From Oceanibaculum indicum P24 (GTDB lineage: Bacteria > Pseudomonadota > Alphaproteobacteria > Oceanibaculales > Oceanibaculaceae), in assembly GCF_000299935.1 (NCBI RefSeq), contig NZ_AMRL01000024.1:1-60689 (forward strand): 60,689 nucleotides of DNA. Reading direction: 5' to 3'. The notes beneath the pieces are model-generated. The model searched no databases. It was not told where the DNA came from and worked only from the letters and a program-made list of their open reading frames with translations. Below, piece after piece: positions 17,733 to 50,467 of the stretch; the stretch's first letter is position 1; each line of letters starts with the position of its first letter. The translations under genes and the position numbers were made by a program.

Positions 17733-19396
17733 TGCCGCGCTTTCGCCCTGCCGGCGGTCAGCCGGCCAAGCCCGCCATTCGCCGCACCCTGCTTGACCGC
17801 GCGGTTGGCATCGTGTCTCCGGCGGCGGAGCTGAACCGCATCCGCGCGCGCGCCGCTGTCGATATGGCGGCCTATTGGGGCGGCGGCGGGATGGGCGGCT
17901 ATGAGGGGGCGTCGCGCACAAAGCGCAGCCTGGCAAGCTGGTTTACCCGCGCCCTGTCTGCGGATCAGGCGCTTTTGCCGTCGCTGCCGGAGCTGCGCAA
18001 CCGCTCCCGCGATCTGGAGCGCAATTCGCCCATCGCGGGCGGCGCGATCAGCACGGTGGTTGACAATGTGGTGGGGGCCGGCCTTGTGCCCCTCCCGACC
18101 GTCGATGCCGCCTTTCTGAAAGGCGCGGTCGGCATGACCGAAACAGAGGCGGAGCAATGGGAGGCCGATGCCGCCCGGCTGTGGCGCCATGTCAGCGAAA
18201 GCGAGGATGTGGACGTTGAGCGTTCCGCCAATCACCTGCAGCAGCAAGAGCTGGTGTTGCGGGAGGTGCTGACGGCGGGCGATGTATTCCCGATCCGGCG
18301 CTATATCGAGCGCCCGTCGCGGCTGCTGGGCTTCACCGTGCAGCTTGTCGAAGGGGAGCGCTGTTGCAATCCGAATGGCGAGCCGGCGACGCATCGGCTG
18401 GCGGCGGGTGTGGAGTATGACGCGGACAGCGCGGCAATCGCCTATCACTTCCGCACCGGCACAATCGGAGATCCTGCCGCGCCGCAACGCTGGGTCCGGG
18501 TTCCGGCCCGCGACGATGCCACTGGCCTGTGGACGTGCCGGCGGCTGTTCGCGCCGAAACGGCCGGGGCAGCGCCGGGGCGTGCCGTACCTGGCGCCGGT
18601 AATCGAGACGATCAAGCAGCTTGATCGCTACAGCGAGGCGGAAATCATGGCGGCGGTCATGAACAGTTGCTTCGCCATCGTGATGAAGTCTCCCACCGGG
18701 GAGGGGTCCGCCGGCCTCGATCCGCTGTCCGGCGGTGAGGATGCGTCGGTTACCGACCGGGGGGAGATCGTACTTACCGAGGCCGGCACCATCGTTGACC
18801 TTGGCGAGAATGAGGAAATCCAGGGCTTCAATGCGGCCCGGCCGAACAGCAACTTCGATCCGTTCTATTCGGCCATGGTCAAGCAGATTGGCGTTGGCCT
18901 GGGTATCCCGTTCGAAGTTCTGATGAAAAGCTTCAACTCCTCCTACACCGCGTCGAAAGGCGCGCTGGAGGTGGCATGGCAGATGTTCCGGAGCCGTCGC
19001 GCCTGGCTGGTGCGGGGCTTCTGCCATCCCTGCTATGAGGCGGCGATTACCGAGGCGGTTGCCTCCGGCCTGCTGATCGCGCCCGGTTATTTCGATCATC
19101 CGCTGATCCGCGCGGCCTATCTGGGGGCGCAGTGGATTGGCCCGTCGCAGCCGATCCTTGATGAGGTCAAGGCGGCAACGGCGGCCGAAAAGCGCATCAA
19201 CATCGAAATCTCGACGCGCTCCAGCGAGGCGGCGGCACGCGGCGGGGATTATCGACAGATACACCAGCAGCGCGCGCGGGAGGAGAAGGCGCGCCGCGAA
19301 GCCGGGCTGGCGATGGCGGATGCGTCCGCACCGGCGGCGGCGGCACTGCCGGCCGTGCCGGATGATGAGGATGAGGAAGGGAGGGGCAATCAATGA
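17732..19396 (+). CDS. Portal protein, lambda family
   Basis: 554 aa. Conserved portal signals include 'ELRNRSRDLERNSPIAGGAI' near residue 85, 'VVDNVVGAGLVP', 'GDVFPIRRYI', 'AEIMAAVMNSCFAIVMKSPT' and 'GIPFEVLMKSFNSSYTASKG' close to the C-terminus, followed by a helical tail and acidic end. It forms the dodecameric DNA entry ring. The last 4 bp overlap the protease gene. Confidence 0.95.
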   Translation: MPRFRPAGGQPAKPAIRRTLLDRAVGIVSPAAELNRIRARAAVDMAAYWGGGGMGGYEGASRTKRSLASWFTRALSADQALLPSLPELRNRSRDLERNSPIAGGAISTVVDNVVGAGLVPLPTVDAAFLKGAVGMTETEAEQWEADAARLWRHVSESEDVDVERSANHLQQQELVLREVLTAGDVFPIRRYIERPSRLLGFTVQLVEGERCCNPNGEPATHRLAAGVEYDADSAAIAYHFRTGTIGDPAAPQRWVRVPARDDATGLWTCRRLFAPKRPGQRRGVPYLAPVIETIKQLDRYSEAEIMAAVMNSCFAIVMKSPTGEGSAGLDPLSGGEDASVTDRGEIVLTEAGTIVDLGENEEIQGFNAARPNSNFDPFYSAMVKQIGVGLGIPFEVLMKSFNSSYTASKGALEVAWQMFRSRRAWLVRGFCHPCYEAAITEAVASGLLIAPGYFDHPLIRAAYLGAQWIGPSQPILDEVKAATAAEKRINIEISTRSSEAAARGGDYRQIHQQRAREEKARREAGLAMADASAPAAAALPAVPDDEDEEGRGNQ

Positions 19397-20838
19397 ATGC
19401 CTTGGATTTTGTACTCGCGGAACCTTGGGCGATTACCGAGGATTACTTGCGGGCCATCCTCGCAATCGCCAGCCGGGACATGAATGCGGAGCTGGAAGCC
19501 CTGCAGGCCAAGGCCGGCAAGCCCCTGATGAATACCCGCGCCGTCACGGTGCGGGATGGCGTTGCCGTCATCCCCGTTGTGGGGCCGATGTTCCCGCGCG
19601 CCAATCTGTTTACCGAGGTATCGGGCGCCACCTCCTATGAGGTGCTGGCGACAGATTTCAATCGGGCGCTGGAGGATGGCAGCGTGCGCGCCATCGTCAC
19701 CACCTGGTCAACGCCCGGCGGTGCGGCGGAGGCGGTTAACGAGCTGGCGGGCATGATCCATGGCGCGCGAGGCCGGAAGCCGATTGCCGCCTATGTCGGC
19801 GGCAGCGCCGCATCGGCGGGCTATTGGCTGGCGTCTGCGGTCGAACCGGGCTTGCTGGTCATGGATGCTACCGCGACGGTCGGCTCTATCGGTGTGATGG
19901 GAACCTACATCGATACCCGCGAGCGCGATGCGCGCGCCGGGGTGAAGGAAGTGCGCTTCATTTCATCGAATGCGCCGGACAAGAACCGCGATCCGATCAG
20001 CGATCCGGAAGGCGCTGCCCTGGTACAGCGCCGCGTTGATGCGCTGGAGGCGGTCTTTATCGAGACGGTCGCCCGCAACCGGGGTGTCACGGTGGAAAAG
20101 GTGAAGGCTGATTTCGGTCGCGGCGATGTGATCGTCGGTCGCGCCGCTGTCGATGCGGGCATGGCGGATAGCCTTGGCTCGCTGGAAGGGCTGATCGCCA
20201 GCCTGAAGGATGGGGGGCGGTCGTTCCCCGGATACCGGCCGTCCGGGTCTGCCCCGGCGGCGGGCGCCACTCAAGAGGAGAAGAACATGCCAAACGAGAA
20301 CACGATTACCACGGAAGCGGCCCTGCGCGCCGCCTATCCGGACATGGTGTCCGGCATCGAAAAGGCGGCGGGTGCTTCCGCTCTGGCCTCGGTGTCCACC
20401 GTCGATCAGTTGAAGGCGGGTTTCCCGTCGCTGGTCGCCTCGGTCGAGAAGGATGCGAAGGATGCGGCGGTGAAGGATGAGCGCGCCCGCCTGATCGCTA
20501 TCGATGATGCGACGCTGCCGGGGTGTGAGGCGCTGGCCAAGGAAGCCAAGGAAACCGGCCTTTCCGCCGCTGATTTCAGCCTCAAGCAGACTTCTGCCAT
20601 CAAGGCCAAGGGCGCGGATGCGCTGAAGTCCATTCAGGCTTCGGCAGCGCCGGCGGTTGATACCGGCAAGCCGGGTACGGGCGATGCGCCCGGCACTGCT
20701 TCCCCGGCGAATGCCAGGCAGATTTCTGACCGCATCGCGGCCATCGTCGCCAGCGAAAAGCAGGCCGGCCGCACGATCAGCTATGCCGATGCGGCTGGCC
20801 GGGCGGCGGATGAGTTCAAGGCGGCCGCTGCCGGCTGA
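19393..20838 (+). CDS. S49 family capsid maturation protease, scaffold fusion (gpC-like)
   Basis: 481 aa. Residues 50-250 are a ClpP/SppA-like domain with 'TTWSTPGGAAEAVNEL' and 'AYVGGSAASAGYWLAS'; by comparison with SppA the nucleophile is Ser141. The rest ('MPNENTITTEAALRAAYPDM' onward) is helical and charged like a scaffold. As in lambda gpC, this protease would cleave the portal and scaffold, and the tail may be also made separately from an internal start at 20,287. Location between portal and decoration genes fits exactly. Confidence 0.92.
   Translation: MNALDFVLAEPWAITEDYLRAILAIASRDMNAELEALQAKAGKPLMNTRAVTVRDGVAVIPVVGPMFPRANLFTEVSGATSYEVLATDFNRALEDGSVRAIVTTWSTPGGAAEAVNELAGMIHGARGRKPIAAYVGGSAASAGYWLASAVEPGLLVMDATATVGSIGVMGTYIDTRERDARAGVKEVRFISSNAPDKNRDPISDPEGAALVQRRVDALEAVFIETVARNRGVTVEKVKADFGRGDVIVGRAAVDAGMADSLGSLEGLIASLKDGGRSFPGYRPSGSAPAAGATQEEKNMPNENTITTEAALRAAYPDMVSGIEKAAGASALASVSTVDQLKAGFPSLVASVEKDAKDAAVKDERARLIAIDDATLPGCEALAKEAKETGLSAADFSLKQTSAIKAKGADALKSIQASAAPAVDTGKPGTGDAPGTASPANARQISDRIAAIVASEKQAGRTISYADAAGRAADEFKAAAAG
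20287..20838 (+). CDS. Nested in-frame scaffold protein (Nu3-like) from internal start
   Basis: ATG 20287 is codon 299 of the protease gene and is preceded by AAGAGGAGAAG, one of the better ribosome-binding sites of the head operon. The 183-residue product would be entirely helical and charged ('LAKEAKETGLSAADFSLKQT'), as scaffolds are. Lambda makes Nu3 in the same way from inside gene C. Separate expression is inferred from the site and the parallel. Confidence 0.62.
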   Translation: MPNENTITTEAALRAAYPDMVSGIEKAAGASALASVSTVDQLKAGFPSLVASVEKDAKDAAVKDERARLIAIDDATLPGCEALAKEAKETGLSAADFSLKQTSAIKAKGADALKSIQASAAPAVDTGKPGTGDAPGTASPANARQISDRIAAIVASEKQAGRTISYADAAGRAADEFKAAAAG

Positions 20839-20923
20839 TCGGGCCGGCTGCTGTCGTCGGGGTTAGCCCCTGCCGCATGGTGCGGCCGGGGTGGCGTGTG
20901 ATGAAAAGAGGAGGGGCCGGGTC

Positions 20924-21313
20924 ATGAACCAGGGCTTGATTAAGACCTACAATGCGGGCGGCGCCATCGCCGCCAACACCATTCTCGCTGTCAGCGATGC
21001 CGACTATGAGGTGGTGCAGGCGTCTGCCGCTACGGACGATATGGTCGGGGTGTGTATCTCCCCGAAGGGCGCTGCCTCCGGCGGCCGTGTCGATGTGCAG
21101 ATCGACGGGATCGCCCTGGTGAAGTTCGGGGATACCGTCGCGCGCGGCAAGCCGGTGACGGCCGATGCCAATGGCAAGGCGGTCTTGGCGGAGCCGGCGG
21201 CGGCGGTCAATGTGCGGATCATCGGCTATGCCGAGATCAGCGCCGTTGATGGCGATATCGCGCCGGTGCGCCTGGCGCCGGGCTATCTGCAGGGCGAGGG
21301 CAACGCCGCCTGA
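20924..21313 (+). CDS. Head decoration protein (DUF2190-like / gpD position)
   Basis: 129 aa from ATG 20924 behind GAGGAGGGG. Beta-rich with repeated 'VTADANGKAVLAEPAAAVNV' style turns and 'DDMVGVCISPKGAASGGRVD', typical of DUF2190 capsid stabilising proteins. It lies between the protease/scaffold and the major capsid gene, like lambda gpD. Expected on the outside of the capsid at three-fold positions. Confidence 0.8.
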   Translation: MNQGLIKTYNAGGAIAANTILAVSDADYEVVQASAATDDMVGVCISPKGAASGGRVDVQIDGIALVKFGDTVARGKPVTADANGKAVLAEPAAAVNVRIIGYAEISAVDGDIAPVRLAPGYLQGEGNAA

Positions 21314-21328
21314 TCCTGACTGACTGCC

Positions 21329-21400
21329 GCCGCCTGTCTGGCGGTGGATTTTCTGGCCGCCCCCCTTGAACGGGAATGGGCGGTTTTTTCGTTCAAGGGG
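21329..21400 (+). promoter_or_regulatory. Interleaved terminator and SD-sequestering hairpin before the major capsid gene
   Basis: Hairpin A: CCGCCC (21,357-21,362) with GGGCGG (21,378-21,383) followed by six T (21,384-21,389), a standard terminator. Hairpin B: CCCCTTGAACG (21,362-21,372) is the exact complement of CGTTCAAGGGG (21,390-21,400), which includes the AGGGG ribosome-binding site of the capsid gene. The arms alternate A-B-A-B, so the two hairpins compete or form a pseudoknot. A GC-rich hairpin (around 21,327-21,347) precedes them. Confidence 0.68.
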
Positions 21401-21408
21401 TGTCGATC

Positions 21409-22347
21409 ATGAATGATGCAGCTTTTCCCATCGATCCGGTGTTGACCGGTATCGTCATCGCGTACCGCAACCAGCGCTATATTGCCGATATGGTGCTGCC
21501 GCGCCTCGATCCTCCTTTGGCCAAGAAGGAATTCAAGTGGGGCAAGTGGGACCTGTCGCAGGGTTACACCATCCCCAACACGCTGGTCGGCCGGAAGGGT
21601 GTGCCGACCGAGGTGGAATTCACCGGCACCGAGGAAAGCGCGATGTGCCTGGATTATGGCCTGGATGATCTGGTGCCGTATGACGACGAAAAGCAGGCCG
21701 CCGGGTCCGGCTTCGCCCCGGTGCGCAAGGCGGCGGAAAGCCTCTATGACCTGGTGCTTCTCGACCGGGAGAAGCGCGTCGCGGATGCGGTGTTCAATGC
21801 CGCGACCTATCCGACCGGCAACAAGGCGACGCTCTCCGGCTCGACGCAGTGGAGCCATGCCGACAGCGATCCGATTACCGCCGTTCTGACGGCGATGGAT
21901 GCCATGCTGATCCGGCCGAACAAGATGGTTCTGGGCCGGCAGGTCTATACCAAGTTCCGCACGCATCCGAAGGTGGTTGCCGCCGTCAACCCGTCCGGCG
22001 CCGCTTCCGGTGTCGCCAGCAAAGAAGCCATCGCCGATCTGCTGGAGCTGGAGGATATCATCGTCGGTGAAGCCTTCTTCAATGCCGCCAAGCCGGGGCA
22101 GGCGATGAGCCGTACCCGCACCTGGGGTAAGCATGCCGCGCTGATCTACAGCGACGGTCTGGCGGATAACGAGAATGGCCGCGTTACCTTCGGCTTCACC
22201 GCGCAGTATGACACGCCCGTCTCCGGTTCCATCCCGGAGCCGAAACGCGGCCTTCGCGGGTCGGAGCGGGTGCGCTCCGGGGAAAGCGTGAAGGAAGTGA
22301 TCTGCGCGCCGGACGTGGGGTACTTCTTCGAAAACGCCATCGCCTAA
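21409..22347 (+). CDS. Major capsid protein
   Basis: 312 aa from ATG 21409, 8 nt after AGGGG. The start 'FPIDPVLTGIVIAYRNQRYI' and 'LVGRKGVPTEVEFTGTEESA' plus 'LDYGLDDLVPYDDEKQA' are typical of a family of HK97-fold capsid proteins of alphaproteobacterial phages; a later 'AVLTAMDAMLIRPNKMVLGR' is also conserved. No long N-terminal scaffold is present, in line with a separate scaffold. It has its own strong downstream terminator. Confidence 0.9.
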   Translation: MNDAAFPIDPVLTGIVIAYRNQRYIADMVLPRLDPPLAKKEFKWGKWDLSQGYTIPNTLVGRKGVPTEVEFTGTEESAMCLDYGLDDLVPYDDEKQAAGSGFAPVRKAAESLYDLVLLDREKRVADAVFNAATYPTGNKATLSGSTQWSHADSDPITAVLTAMDAMLIRPNKMVLGRQVYTKFRTHPKVVAAVNPSGAASGVASKEAIADLLELEDIIVGEAFFNAAKPGQAMSRTRTWGKHAALIYSDGLADNENGRVTFGFTAQYDTPVSGSIPEPKRGLRGSERVRSGESVKEVICAPDVGYFFENAIA

Positions 22348-22372
22348 GCGCGCTGGCATCGGCAATCGACGG

Positions 22373-22411
22373 GCCGGCCATCCCTGACGGGGTGGCCGGC
22401 TTTCTGTTTTT
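22373..22411 (+). terminator. Strong terminator after the major capsid gene
   Basis: GCCGGCCATCCC (22,373-22,384) pairs with GGGGTGGCCGGC (22,389-22,400), one G-T pair included, around a four-base loop, then TTTCTGTTTTT. It would set the 3' end of capsid mRNA and lower expression of the tail genes. Confidence 0.85.
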
Positions 22412-22435
22412 CAGTCTCGGAAAGAGGGCAAGATC

Positions 22436-22777
22436 ATGAGCGATCCGAACACCACGCAGCCGGCACCGGATGCCGGCGCTACGCAGGCCGTGCAGGATGC
22501 CGCTGCCGCGCAGCCCAAGGAAAAGAAGGGCGGCAAGTCCGCCATCGCCAAGGCCGAGGGTCCGCGCGACTACATCACCACGCGCCTGGTGCAGCATGAT
22601 GATGAGGATTATCCGGAGGGCGATACCATCCGCCTGACGGAAAAGCAGGCCGGGCCGCTGCTGGCCTGCGGTGCCATCCTCGACGCTGCCGAGGTCGAGG
22701 CGGCGGAAAAAGCCGCTGCCGATGCCAAGGCGGAGAAGCTGGCGGAGTCCGCCGCGCGCCGCAAGGGCGGCAAGTAA
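22436..22777 (+). CDS. Hypothetical head-tail region protein, 113 aa
   Basis: Preceded by AAAGAGGGCA. N-terminal 35 residues are low complexity (Ala/Pro/Gln) and the C-terminus is a charged helix ('AEVEAAEKAAADAKAEKLAE'); the middle 'YITTRLVQHDDEDYPEGDTI' is a short beta region. Sits where lambda has FI. No certain family. Confidence 0.68.
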   Translation: MSDPNTTQPAPDAGATQAVQDAAAAQPKEKKGGKSAIAKAEGPRDYITTRLVQHDDEDYPEGDTIRLTEKQAGPLLACGAILDAAEVEAAEKAAADAKAEKLAESAARRKGGK

Positions 22778-22781
22778 TCCC

Positions 22782-23096
22782 ATGCCTATCGACTTCGCGG
22801 CCGATCTGGAAGCGATGTTCGACCTGGAAGCCTTCGGCGTGCCGGCCTCCTACCAGCCGGCAGCCGGGGGCGATCCGGTGTCCATCGTCATCCTGCTGGA
22901 TACTCCGGACATGGATACCCATGCGGCCGGGATGCGAGTGCTGGCGGAGGGCCGCCTTGCGCATATCCAGCAAGCCGAGATCGCGCTGCCGGTGCGGGGC
23001 GATCAGCTTACCGCGCTGGGAAATGTCTATGACGTGCGGGAGCGGCGCCTGTCGGATGACGGGCTGCTGTGGACCGTCGAGCTGGTCGAGGTCTGA
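22782..23096 (+). CDS. Head-tail joining protein (gpFII-like position)
   Basis: 104 aa from ATG 22782, 4 bp after the previous stop. Pattern of 'MPIDFAADLEAMFDLEAFGV' then beta strands ('VSIVILLDTPDMDTHAAGMR', 'VYDVRERRLSDDGLLWTVEL') is usual for the small head completion proteins of lambda-like phages (gpFII, ATP-binding-sugar-transporter-like fold). Assigned by size, order and pattern. Confidence 0.68.
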   Translation: MPIDFAADLEAMFDLEAFGVPASYQPAAGGDPVSIVILLDTPDMDTHAAGMRVLAEGRLAHIQQAEIALPVRGDQLTALGNVYDVRERRLSDDGLLWTVELVEV

Positions 23097-23099
23097 CGG

Positions 23100-23714
23100 A
23101 TGAGCGGCATGCGCATCACCGCTGCCCTGTCCGGCCGGCTGGCGCAGGAAATGCGCGCGGAGGCCGCCCATGTTGCGGAGGCTGTGCATAGCAGCGTGAC
23201 GGGCGAAACGACTGCCGTGCAGCTCCGCGCGCGCGGGCTGGTGGATGCCGCCCTGCCGCCGCGTGCCGGCAGCCGGCGCAAGCCGTCCAATGCCATCCGG
23301 CAGAAAATCTATAATGACGGGCCGGGCCGGGTGCGCGGCATCGTCTATTCGAAATTCGGGCGCCGCGAAGGCGGGCGCTTTGTCGATTACCTGAAGCCGC
23401 ATGTCGATGGCGCGGATATCCGCCCCCGCGCCGGCAGCTTCATGGTGCTGCCGGTCAAGGGGCAGTCGCGCCGCATGGACCGCATCCGCCGCGATCTTGG
23501 CCGGCTGGGGGAAGACCCGAAGCTGGCGTTGATCCCGGTGTCCGGCGGCCGCTTCGTCTTCGTCCGGCGTGCCAGCCGCAACCGCACCGTCCTGCTGGCC
23601 TGGCTGGTGCGCGGCGTCCGCATCGATCCGAAGCTGAATTTCAGGCCGCTGGAGCAATCCGCTGCTTCCGGCCTTGCGCGCCGCCTCTCCGCCGATCTGG
23701 CGAAGCCGGCATAG
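23100..23714 (+). CDS. Minor tail / tail completion protein, DUF6441 (gpZ-like)
   Basis: 204 aa. 'EAVHSSVTGETTAVQLRARG' and a basic 'AGSRRKPSNAIRQKIYND' region, then 'PRAGSFMVLPVKGQ', are typical of DUF6441, which replaces gpZ in many alphaproteobacterial siphophages. Likely at the head-proximal end of the tail, between the joining protein and the gpU-like gene. Confidence 0.75.
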   Translation: MSGMRITAALSGRLAQEMRAEAAHVAEAVHSSVTGETTAVQLRARGLVDAALPPRAGSRRKPSNAIRQKIYNDGPGRVRGIVYSKFGRREGGRFVDYLKPHVDGADIRPRAGSFMVLPVKGQSRRMDRIRRDLGRLGEDPKLALIPVSGGRFVFVRRASRNRTVLLAWLVRGVRIDPKLNFRPLEQSAASGLARRLSADLAKPA

Positions 23715-23723
23715 GAGAAGCCC

Positions 23724-24179
23724 ATGCCCGATCCTGTCAGCATCCGCGAACGCTGCCTTGCCGCCGTCGCCACGATCCTTGCCGGTGTGGCGGAGGATGA
23801 GGGCGCGAAGTTTCTGCGCAATCCGGATTTCCAGCTATCGCGGGCCGATGCGCCGGTCATCGTGATGATGGATGGGGATGAGCGCGCGGAGGATGACGAA
23901 ACCGGGCTGTTGAGCGTGGTGATCGATGTTGCCGTTGGGCTGCTGATCGCCTTCCGGAGCCATGCGGAGGTTGGGCCGGGCCTGTCTGAATGGCGCGCGA
24001 AAGTGCGCCTGGCGATGGCGGCCGATCCCTCGCTTGGCGGCATTGCCCGCCATGTCCGCTATGTCGAGGCGTCCGGGGTGGATGTCCCCGATCAGCCGGG
24101 CGGCAAGCCGCTGGCGGGGCTGGTGCTGGGTTTCGAAATCGAGACGCAGGAAGCCGAACACGATCCTTACGCGCAATAG
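23724..24179 (+). CDS. Tail terminator-like protein (gpU position)
   Basis: 151 aa with a strong ribosome-binding site (AGGAGAAG). Long N-terminal helix 'IRERCLAAVATILAGVAEDE' followed by 'VIVMMDGDERAEDDETGLLS' and amphipathic strands resembles the gpU fold, which caps the tail tube. Order (before the tube protein) supports it. Confidence 0.68.
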   Translation: MPDPVSIRERCLAAVATILAGVAEDEGAKFLRNPDFQLSRADAPVIVMMDGDERAEDDETGLLSVVIDVAVGLLIAFRSHAEVGPGLSEWRAKVRLAMAADPSLGGIARHVRYVEASGVDVPDQPGGKPLAGLVLGFEIETQEAEHDPYAQ

Positions 24180-24189
24180 GAGGCGTGCC

Positions 24190-24366
24190 ATGCAAAGGAA
24201 AGCCCCGCGTGTGCGGGAAGCATCGCCGCGTGTCGCGGCGGTGGCACCGCATCGCCTGCCCGATGGGGCGGCGGCGCGGCCGGGACCGGCGGCCCTGTCG
24301 GCCGTAGGGGAGAAGGTGAAACAGCGCCGGCGCGGCCGTCGCAAGGTTGAGGAGAAAAAGGGATGA
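24190..24366 (+). CDS. Small basic protein, 58 aa
   Basis: ATG 24190 follows AGGAGG, and its stop overlaps the tail tube start as ATGA, so it is a real translated unit. The product is rich in Arg, Lys, Ala and Pro and likely disordered ('KVKQRRRGRRKVEEKKG'). No family. Confidence 0.6.
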   Translation: MQRKAPRVREASPRVAAVAPHRLPDGAAARPGPAALSAVGEKVKQRRRGRRKVEEKKG

Positions 24367-25529
24367 GCAGTTTCCGGACCAAGAATGTCATCACGGCCGC
24401 CAAGGTGCAGGCGGAGGTCGGCACCGATGCCGCCCCCACCGTGGGGGATGACGCCTTCCTGTGCGAGGCGGTGTCCGCCAATCCGAGTTTCGAAAACGAG
24501 GATACCGACGAAAGCACCGGCGTCCTGGATGACCGGCCGTCCATTGCCGGCGGCGGCTTCCGCCCCTTCGATACCACCGTGCATCTGAAGGGCAGCGGCA
24601 GCGCCGGCACCGCGCCGGAATTCGCCGCGCTGCTGATCGGCTGCGCCATGGCGGAATATCTGCTGGCGGCCGATCTGGTCGGCACCGCGACGGCGGGCAC
24701 CTCCTCGACGGTCAGCGTGCCGGACATTACCGGCGTGCGCGCCGGCATGGTGCTGGAAATCACGGACGGCACCGGCGAAGGCCAGCGCCGCGTGATTACC
24801 GGCGTGACGGCGGGTGTCAATCCGGCGGGCGTGCTGGCGGTCTATCCGGATTTCGAAACCGATCCGGACGAAACCAGTGAGATCACGGTGCGCGCCTGCG
24901 CACTCTATGTCCCGGCGTCCACCAGCCTGAAGAACATCACGCTGCGCCGGTGGCAGAAAGACAGCGCCGGCGGCAATTCGAAGCTGACCAGCATTGTCGA
25001 TGCGGCGGGTACGGCGAATTTCACCTTCGCGCCGCGCGTCACCGGCAAGTGCCAGTTCCAGATGCGCGGCCGCCTGTCGGCGCCGACCGATGTTGCCGAT
25101 CCCGGCGCGCCGTCGCTGACTTCCGTTCGGCCGGTGGCTCTGGTGGGCGCGGAAATCTTCCTGGGGGGCGTCGCCACGCGCTTCAACCAGCTGACCTTCA
25201 ACCTGGGCGCGACGGTCGATCAGCAGGACGATCCCTCGGATGCCTATGGCTATGGCGAGGCCGGGGTGACGCGGCGCCGCATGGAAGGCCGCATCAACCC
25301 GCCGATGGCCCTGCAATCGGTGCGCAACGCCTTCGCGTCCTGGCTGAACGGCACGACGCAGGCTTTCTGGCTGAATTACGGGCCGGCCGCCGGCAACCGG
25401 ATCAGCCTCTACGCGCCGGAGCTGGTCTATACCGGAGACGAAGACGAGGACGTGCGCGGCTTCGCGCATTCCGGCCTGCCCTTCCGCGCCGGCGGGCAGG
25501 ATAGCGGCGTCCATATCTGCTTCTGGTAA
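24363..25529 (+). CDS. Major tail tube protein (gpV-like)
   Basis: 388 aa. N-terminus 'FRTKNVITAAKVQAEVGTDA', 'FENEDTDESTGVLDDRPSIA' and 'VHLKGSGSAGTAPEFAALLI' are characteristic of a long form of tail tube protein in alphaproteobacterial siphophages. It stacks as hexamers on the tape measure. A middle segment 'TVSVPDITGVRAGMVLEITD' may be an inserted Ig-like surface domain. Its stop overlaps three tandem repeats, followed by a terminator. Confidence 0.82.
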   Translation: MSSFRTKNVITAAKVQAEVGTDAAPTVGDDAFLCEAVSANPSFENEDTDESTGVLDDRPSIAGGGFRPFDTTVHLKGSGSAGTAPEFAALLIGCAMAEYLLAADLVGTATAGTSSTVSVPDITGVRAGMVLEITDGTGEGQRRVITGVTAGVNPAGVLAVYPDFETDPDETSEITVRACALYVPASTSLKNITLRRWQKDSAGGNSKLTSIVDAAGTANFTFAPRVTGKCQFQMRGRLSAPTDVADPGAPSLTSVRPVALVGAEIFLGGVATRFNQLTFNLGATVDQQDDPSDAYGYGEAGVTRRRMEGRINPPMALQSVRNAFASWLNGTTQAFWLNYGPAAGNRISLYAPELVYTGDEDEDVRGFAHSGLPFRAGGQDSGVHICFW

Positions 25530-25565: not shown

Positions 25566-25585
25566 GGGGCGCATCAACCGCGAAA

Positions 25586-25616
25586 GGGCGGGGGCTTCGG
25601 CTCCCGCCCTTTTTTC
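25586..25616 (+). terminator. Terminator after the tail tube gene
   Basis: GGGCGGG at 25,586-25,592 pairs with CCCGCCC at 25,603-25,609 around a loop with a stable CTTCGG; six T follow. It separates highly expressed tail tube mRNA from the chaperone/tape measure genes. Confidence 0.88.
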
Positions 25617-25651: not shown

Positions 25652-26452
25652 ATGTCCACTTCTCCCGCTTCCATCCTCTCCGATCCGGCAAAGCCGGTCC
25701 CGATGATCCCGTCCGATCAGGTGCGATTGCCTGTCAGGGATCGCATCACCTACTGGCTGCGCCTGCCGACCGTGACGGATCGTGTCGCCTTCCCGCGCGA
25801 GGTCGCGGAGGCCGGCGGGATCAACCACAGCAATGATGTGATGCTGGCGGCGCTGGTTGATGGCGTGAAACAGATCATGCCAAACCATGCGGCGGAGCAA
25901 GCCCGGCTGCTGGAGATCATCGCGGAACAGCGTGCGAAGGCGGATGAGTTCGGGCGGCGCATCCTGTCGCGGGAGCTGGATTTTGAGGCTGATCCCGCCG
26001 GCTTCATGGCGGCGATGGCGGCTACCGGCCCATCCTCCGCGATAAAGGAAATCGAAGCCGTTGTTCAACGGCATTGGGCGCATTATCGCGGCCTGATAGC
26101 GGATCGCGAAACCTACCCGCTGGTGCGCGGCCTGGTCGCGGCGCGTCTGTTCCTGACCGGCTGGGACAATATGCCCGGCCGTGACGGAAAGCCCGTCGCC
26201 TTCCCCGATCCGGTGCCGCCCGGCGGCGTGCCGGATGATCTGCTATCCCTGCTGCCCTCCGCCCATCTGGTCGAGATCGGGCAGGAAATCCAGCGGCTCC
26301 TGGAGCCTTCGGGGCACCTCCTAAAAAACTTGCAATCGCCGTCTGGTGGGGGCTTCGGCCGGCGGACTTCGAAGGCGGCGAAGCCGCGACAGCGGAAAGC
26401 CCCCTTGAAGGCGACTGGTGGGAAGAGCCGGAAATCGGCGTCTCCCGCCTGA
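25652..26452 (+). CDS. Tail assembly chaperone, short form (gpG-like)
   Basis: 266 aa, preceded by AAGGA. Alpha-helical, with 'HSNDVMLAALVDGVKQIMPN' and 'ARLLEIIAEQRAKADEFGRR'. The gene lies between tail tube and tape measure, the G/T position. At codon 224-226 the zero frame reads CTA AAA AAC, a perfect -1 slippery site. The zero-frame tail after it is basic and low complexity ('KPRQRKAPLKATGGKSRK'). The ratio of short and frameshifted forms controls tail assembly in lambda; here inferred. Confidence 0.83.
   Translation: MSTSPASILSDPAKPVPMIPSDQVRLPVRDRITYWLRLPTVTDRVAFPREVAEAGGINHSNDVMLAALVDGVKQIMPNHAAEQARLLEIIAEQRAKADEFGRRILSRELDFEADPAGFMAAMAATGPSSAIKEIEAVVQRHWAHYRGLIADRETYPLVRGLVAARLFLTGWDNMPGRDGKPVAFPDPVPPGGVPDDLLSLLPSAHLVEIGQEIQRLLEPSGHLLKNLQSPSGGGFGRRTSKAAKPRQRKAPLKATGGKSRKSASPA
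26323..26329 (+). promoter_or_regulatory. A AAA AAC slippery heptamer for -1 frameshift
   Basis: The heptamer is correctly phased (A, AAA, AAC in the zero frame of the chaperone gene). A slip gives a continuous -1 frame to 26,667. A GC-rich region capable of hairpins ('CTTCGAAGGCGGCGAAG' type, near 26,365-26,385) follows. It is the only such heptamer noticed in the tail genes. Confidence 0.82.
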
Positions 26453-36209: not shown

Positions 36210-36236
36210 CGGCTTTCCGCCATATCCTGTTTGCAA

Positions 36237-36266
36237 CCCCGCCGGCGCGATCCGGCGGGGTTTTTT
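36237..36266 (+). terminator. Terminator at the end of the tail genes
   Basis: CCCCGCCGG (36,237-36,245) and CCGGCGGGG (36,252-36,260) form a perfect 9-bp stem with a six-base loop followed by six T. It separates tail and lysis genes. Confidence 0.92.
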
Positions 36267-50435: not shown

Positions 50436-50441
50436 GAAAAC

Positions 50442-50467
50442 CCCCGCCGGTTGGCGGGGGTTTTTTC
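50442..50467. terminator. Terminator between mfd and the SDR gene
   Basis: CCCCCGCC (50,442-50,449) and GGCGGGGG (50,454-50,461) form a perfect 8-bp stem with a four-base loop. A-run on the left and T-run on the right make it usable from both strands, as needed between convergent genes. Confidence 0.92.

Follow-up and report, generated by a model that had tools for sequence, protein, structure and literature searches.

Do two interleaved RNA hairpins in the gap between the decoration and major capsid genes of a phage head operon act together on capsid expression and, if so, on transcription or on translation? The stretch of DNA analysed here (the window, 60,689 nucleotides) carries this operon in lambda-type order, with terminase small and large subunits, portal, S49 protease, cement-type decoration protein, capsid protein of the E family, connector and tail genes (Table 1). 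The decoration gene ends with the stop codon at 21311-21313 and the capsid gene begins 95 nt downstream at the ATG at 21409-21411, a start set by the N-termini of the aligned homologues; the in-frame ATG at 21376 was rejected, as it has neither a usable Shine-Dalgarno nor homologue support. Further downstream lie two late genes (24363-25529 and 25652-26452), probably encoding the major tail protein followed by a chaperone-like gene; the first gave no Pfam or PHROG match and the second no PHROG match, and the gene of 388 aa upstream of the hairpin at 25583-25615 is the one we take to be the putative major tail gene. A sequence-only reading of the decoration-to-capsid gap had described a terminator interleaved with an 11-bp hairpin over the capsid ribosome site and had proposed a switch coupling termination, translation or protein feedback. 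Read directly from the sequence, the coordinates given there for the terminator arms, the T6 tract and the 11-bp hairpin are exact to the base.

Table 1. Positions of the hairpins, stems and genes in and around the decoration-to-capsid gap, in window coordinates.
Feature	Position	Strand	Details
Decoration/cement-type head gene	20924..21313	+	PF09956 Phage_cement_2, E 4e-5 (at cutoff); phrog_673 'head scaffolding protein', 3e-23
First hairpin past the decoration stop, then ATTTTC	21324..21347	+	9 pairs, 6 GC; core CCGCCGCC/GGCGGTGG in fold
Terminator stem A	21357..21383	+	Arms CCGCCC 21357-21362 and GGGCGG 21378-21383; direct read and fold; -18.1 kcal/mol, nascent RNA ending 21389
Stem B 5' arm (anti-Shine-Dalgarno arm), CCCCTTGAACG	21362..21372	+	Perfect complement of 21390-21400
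T6 tract of terminator A	21384..21389	+	One of 7 runs of T6 or longer on the + strand of 60.7 kb
Stem B 3' arm, CGTTCAAGGGG, with capsid Shine-Dalgarno AAGGGG 21395-21400	21390..21400	+	Direct sequence read
Major capsid gene, 312 aa	21409..22347	+	phrog_1005 major head protein, 3e-87; PF03864; alignment to homologues starts at residue 1
Terminator-like hairpin after the capsid gene	22371..22402	+	14 pairs, tail TCTGTTTTTC
Strong terminator behind the putative major tail gene (388 aa)	25583..25615	+	12 pairs and TTTTTT

Stem A has the GC-rich stem and directly following U-tract that characterize an intrinsic terminator: its 6-bp core consists entirely of GC pairs (8 bp with the GG-UU pairs that extend it outwards) and closes a 15-nt loop, unless the inner CCC (21363-21365) and GGG (21372-21374) also pair, leaving a 3-nt bulge. 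Terminator-like sites number 15 on the + strand, as opposed to 1-10 per shuffled sequence. Hairpins of this kind with T tracts lie downstream of the decoration gene (a weak one at 21324-21347 and another at 21355-21385), the capsid gene and the 388-aa putative tail gene, each of the three having a strong one immediately behind it. With hairpin-plus-T-tract sites thus placed after three structural genes, terminator A is a member of a series, and its role as an intrinsic terminator, predicted to operate in the cell, is credible. The hairpin at 21324-21347 is either weakly terminator-like or one that would protect an mRNA 3' end. In the window, 25583-25615, 36235-36266 and 50437-50466 are terminators of textbook form, each combining a GC stem of 10-12 bp with T6, and the last of them reads as a terminator on either strand.

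Two prophages of the same genus, whose head module is different and includes a fused protease-capsid, carry a T6 terminator of the sequence CCGCGC-NCC-GCGCGG-TTTTTT directly before a late-gene Shine-Dalgarno (L202 7191-7212 and L203 7696-7717, on the reverse complement of the loci). It precedes a small late gene just upstream of a putative tail gene (CCGCGCNCCGCGCGGTTTTTTCATGGAGG) and suggests that terminators placed immediately before a late ribosome site are not unusual in phages of this genus.

The two arms of stem B are exact reverse complements and form a perfect 11-bp stem, which in the fold grows to 15 continuous pairs by way of GGAA/UUUU and thereby partly consumes the U-tract. Its 3' arm contains the capsid Shine-Dalgarno UCAAGGG (-7.7 kcal/mol, calculated with an assumed standard anti-Shine-Dalgarno), so that the proposed burial of the ribosome site holds in both the sequence and the predicted fold, and stem B as a cover of that site is a credible prediction. 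Opening of the capsid start is calculated to cost 8.9 kcal/mol, the highest value among late genes with gaps longer than 40 nt (4.2-4.9 kcal/mol for the others). At the late starts of terL, 23724 and 33692, which abut or overlap the preceding gene and may be coupled to it, the cost equals or exceeds that of the capsid gene. Within the terminator series, the capsid gene is the only one whose Shine-Dalgarno is also covered by a second stem. Stem B occurs as a single copy in the host genome, on which ground we rejected a repeated or mobile element. The window contains no match to an Rfam family, and no sigma-70-like promoter was found in 19000-25000.

In prediction the two stems, which have one nucleotide in common (21362), compete as the sequence-only reading had supposed, and complete B is the stabler: the fold with B is the free optimum at -26.0 kcal/mol, compared with -18.4 kcal/mol when A is enforced. 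Terminator A is complete at 21383-21386, some 15 nt ahead of the takeover by B; it forms in RNA ending at 21383-21398 and stays the predicted best fold over that range, and B wins from 21399 onwards. Because the 3' arm of B (from 21390) lies downstream of the U-tract, it is absent when RNA polymerase decides; B is therefore not an antiterminator, forms only in readthrough RNA and is unable to affect termination in cis on the same transcript, so that a switch controlling termination is not supported. Direct refolding from A to B without a pseudoknot path meets a computed barrier of ~21 kcal/mol (an upper estimate) and A could therefore persist, while the UUGAAC loop of A could serve as a toehold that speeds the change. 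As for a pseudoknot of A and B, the geometry implies that only a shortened B could coexist with A, since at most one free nucleotide between the 5' arms is available to cross an 11-bp stem.

As the best reading of these features, and a tentative one, we propose a leaky terminator combined with a readthrough-only cover that passively sets capsid output. Terminator A would end part of the decoration-gene transcripts, and stem B would cover the capsid Shine-Dalgarno, forming only in RNA that extends past the terminator. In nascent readthrough RNA, A would hold part of the 5' arm of B and leave the Shine-Dalgarno open to the first ribosomes, and RNA free of ribosomes would then refold into B and shut the capsid site. 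The net effect would be a passive setting of capsid output relative to decoration, with no response to a signal. The analysis shows the sequence, the predicted folds with their order, the terminator series and the absence from relatives; that A terminates transcription in the cell, that readthrough is partial, that B closes the site and that capsid level is affected are steps that we infer. The predicted folding order and energies, the refolding barrier, the terminator series, the high opening cost at the capsid start, the scarcity of 11-bp stems in shuffles of the gap and the T6 terminators of the same-genus prophages speak for this reading. The absence of the pair from relatives, the chance rate of such stems, the equal or higher opening cost at several other late starts and the apparent cost of burying the ribosome site of what is expected to be the most expressed gene speak against it. 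Two other arrangements, both involving a ribosome on the decoration gene, were rejected. Translational coupling by decoration ribosomes fails on geometry, as the stop codon sits 48 nt before the 5' arm of B and the terminating ribosome falls short, and a three-hairpin attenuation pairing GGCGG (21340-21344) with CCGCC (21357-21361) fails because 21327-21334 stays uncovered when a ribosome sits on the decoration stop codon, so that the 21340 arm is not freed.

A serious rival to a gate formed by B is coincidence, and it is quite possible that only the terminator matters: B would then have arisen by chance in GC-rich sequence with C and G runs and would have no regulatory effect, ribosomes and fast co-transcriptional initiation on a strong late gene keeping it open. 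Several observations bear on this directly. When 21314-21411 (98 nt) was dinucleotide-shuffled 3,000 times, only 3 shuffles yielded a perfect 11-bp stem anywhere, and B lies exactly over the Shine-Dalgarno with its 15 continuous pairs, both of which argue against coincidence. The 94-nt local fold reaches -44.7 kcal/mol (z -3.75; equalled by 1 of 200 shuffles). In favour of coincidence, the whole window holds 5 perfect stems of at least 11 bp where ~1.9 are expected (range 0-4 in ten shuffled sequences), and two of the five (36235-36262 and 50437-50464) are plain terminators; since chance gives about 2 such stems per 60 kb and there are several dozen gaps in which one could fall, the presence of stem B is by itself no more than mildly surprising. 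The similar or higher opening costs of other late starts point the same way, as does the absence of B from the relatives described below.

The survey of capsid homologues drew on phage records, IMG/VR, GTDB genomes and a sample of 783 genomes at class and phylum level, and the set comprises 149 with at least 36% identity, window included. The decoration-to-capsid gap has a median of 27 nt among these 149 homologues, much shorter than in the window, and neither stem B nor the interleaved pair was found in any of the ~149, the next best perfect stem over a Shine-Dalgarno being 7 bp long. The set offers no homologous elements for a covariation comparison, and with both the pair and stem B absent from all capsid homologues, nothing shows selection keeping the pair; conservation in relatives, among which the sequence-only reading had suggested a covariation search, is missing from the survey set. 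The order and family, represented by 4 genomes only, held no further copy of this capsid, and scans with a terminase query and with an 18-sequence alignment returned nothing usable. The sole exact pattern match in IMG/VR, with 10-bp arms, was set aside: it is a terminator-like palindrome, the phage contig that carries it is unrelated in sequence, and such a match is expected by chance.

Among 145 scored loci, L046 is the only one besides the window in which a convincing terminator-like hairpin precedes the capsid gene. This hairpin, CGGGGGCC-TGA-CAGGCCCCCG, lies between the decoration and capsid genes, overlaps the upstream stop codon and is not accompanied by a B-like stem. A separate, mostly metagenomic group of relatives (L172, L175, L184, L187, L151, L158-L160, L162, L088 and L165) shows a different arrangement in which pairing is possible between the last part of the decoration gene and the Shine-Dalgarno or start of the capsid gene, TGGNTC.TTCCAGGG (codons Gly-Ser-x-Phe-Gln-Gly) with GGAATGAACCA, in a form that resembles a translational-coupling hairpin. 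The third base of the Gly codon changes together with its partner in some of these (T-A, A-T, G-C), and for 25 sequences none of 2,000 shuffles gave better pairing than that observed, a result that loses significance when all 34 are included or when the register is left free.

The same folds could also be read as a timed translation gate, in which the hairpin of the read-through terminator keeps the capsid site open only while the RNA is freshly made, and RNA that ages or loses its ribosomes is silenced by folding into B. Capsid synthesis would then be tied to ongoing readthrough transcription. We consider such a gate unlikely. Also unlikely is that B serves mRNA processing or stability, as a long helix cut by an RNase III-type enzyme or as a 5' stabilizer, so that the capsid gene would have its own mRNA with an accessible ribosome site. 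A 15-pair helix near the capsid 5' end agrees with this role, in which the decoration mRNA would be protected at its 3' end by terminator A and the hairpin at 21324-21347; however, B is not conserved, and its helix is short for a canonical RNase III site, which counts against processing. A sensed switch or feedback, with capsid, decoration protein or another factor binding A, B or a pseudoknot to tune termination or translation, is very improbable: two mutually exclusive folds are indeed predicted at the site, but they match no Rfam family, have no conserved or covarying relative and are not repeated in the host genome, termination in cis is beyond the reach of B, and no evidence was found for the protein feedback once suggested for this locus. 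Least probable by our estimate is timing of the T4 e/soc type, by which B would shut long transcripts and a phage promoter inside the hairpin would yield translated late transcripts without the 5' arm: the buried Shine-Dalgarno has the same geometry as in T4 e, soc, 49 and I-TevI (PMC3014915), but no sigma-70-like site occurs in 19000-25000 and the sequence between the arms is GC-rich with T6, a phage-specific promoter being possible.

These T4 genes, among them the capsid decoration gene soc, nevertheless show that the claim of no described equivalent was too strong, as their helices hide the Shine-Dalgarno and/or the AUG, and at gene e late promoters remove the 5' arm of the hairpin (PMC3014915). 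The capsid leader resembles them in placing a Shine-Dalgarno in a helix with an upstream arm, here by prediction as 11 perfect pairs over AAGGGG; it differs in that the T4 structure recurs in relatives whereas B recurs in 0 of ~149 homologues, in that no sigma-70-like promoter was found, and in the interleaved terminator. In the MS2 maturation-gene leader and other metastable leaders such as aapA3, an early structure gives way to a stabler one that hides the Shine-Dalgarno (PMC6733600). The predicted order of A and B would fit such delayed folding, in which a transient fold leaves the Shine-Dalgarno open and a stabler final fold closes it, except that the early structure is here a terminator hairpin. 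The leaky T-phi of T7 follows capsid gene 10 in the structural operon, with downstream genes expressed via readthrough (PMC5592923), and acts on the phage polymerase; terminator A precedes its capsid gene, and the positional counterpart of T-phi is the hairpin at 22371-22402. Finally, bacterial transcription and translation attenuators share the two mutually exclusive folds, one a terminator and one covering the Shine-Dalgarno, but their antiterminator is made before the terminator, while here the competing arm is made after it, past the T6. As an internal promoter was not found, recurrence is lacking and the competing arm follows the terminator, the element is not classable as T4 type or as an attenuator; it resembles, in prediction, a blend of T4, T7 and MS2-type parts and is not assignable to any of these classes as a member.

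The interleaved pair is thus a real sequence feature and, as a regulatory element, an unconserved prediction, most likely a local expression-setting element or partly a coincidence. Its component parts are already known from T4 e/soc-type hairpins, phage terminators and MS2-type delayed folding. If B works as proposed, the locus would provide a DNA-phage case of a terminator hairpin with a second job, that of holding a ribosome site open after readthrough, and would suggest how an operon whose start and stop codons are not coupled may set its decoration-to-capsid ratio.
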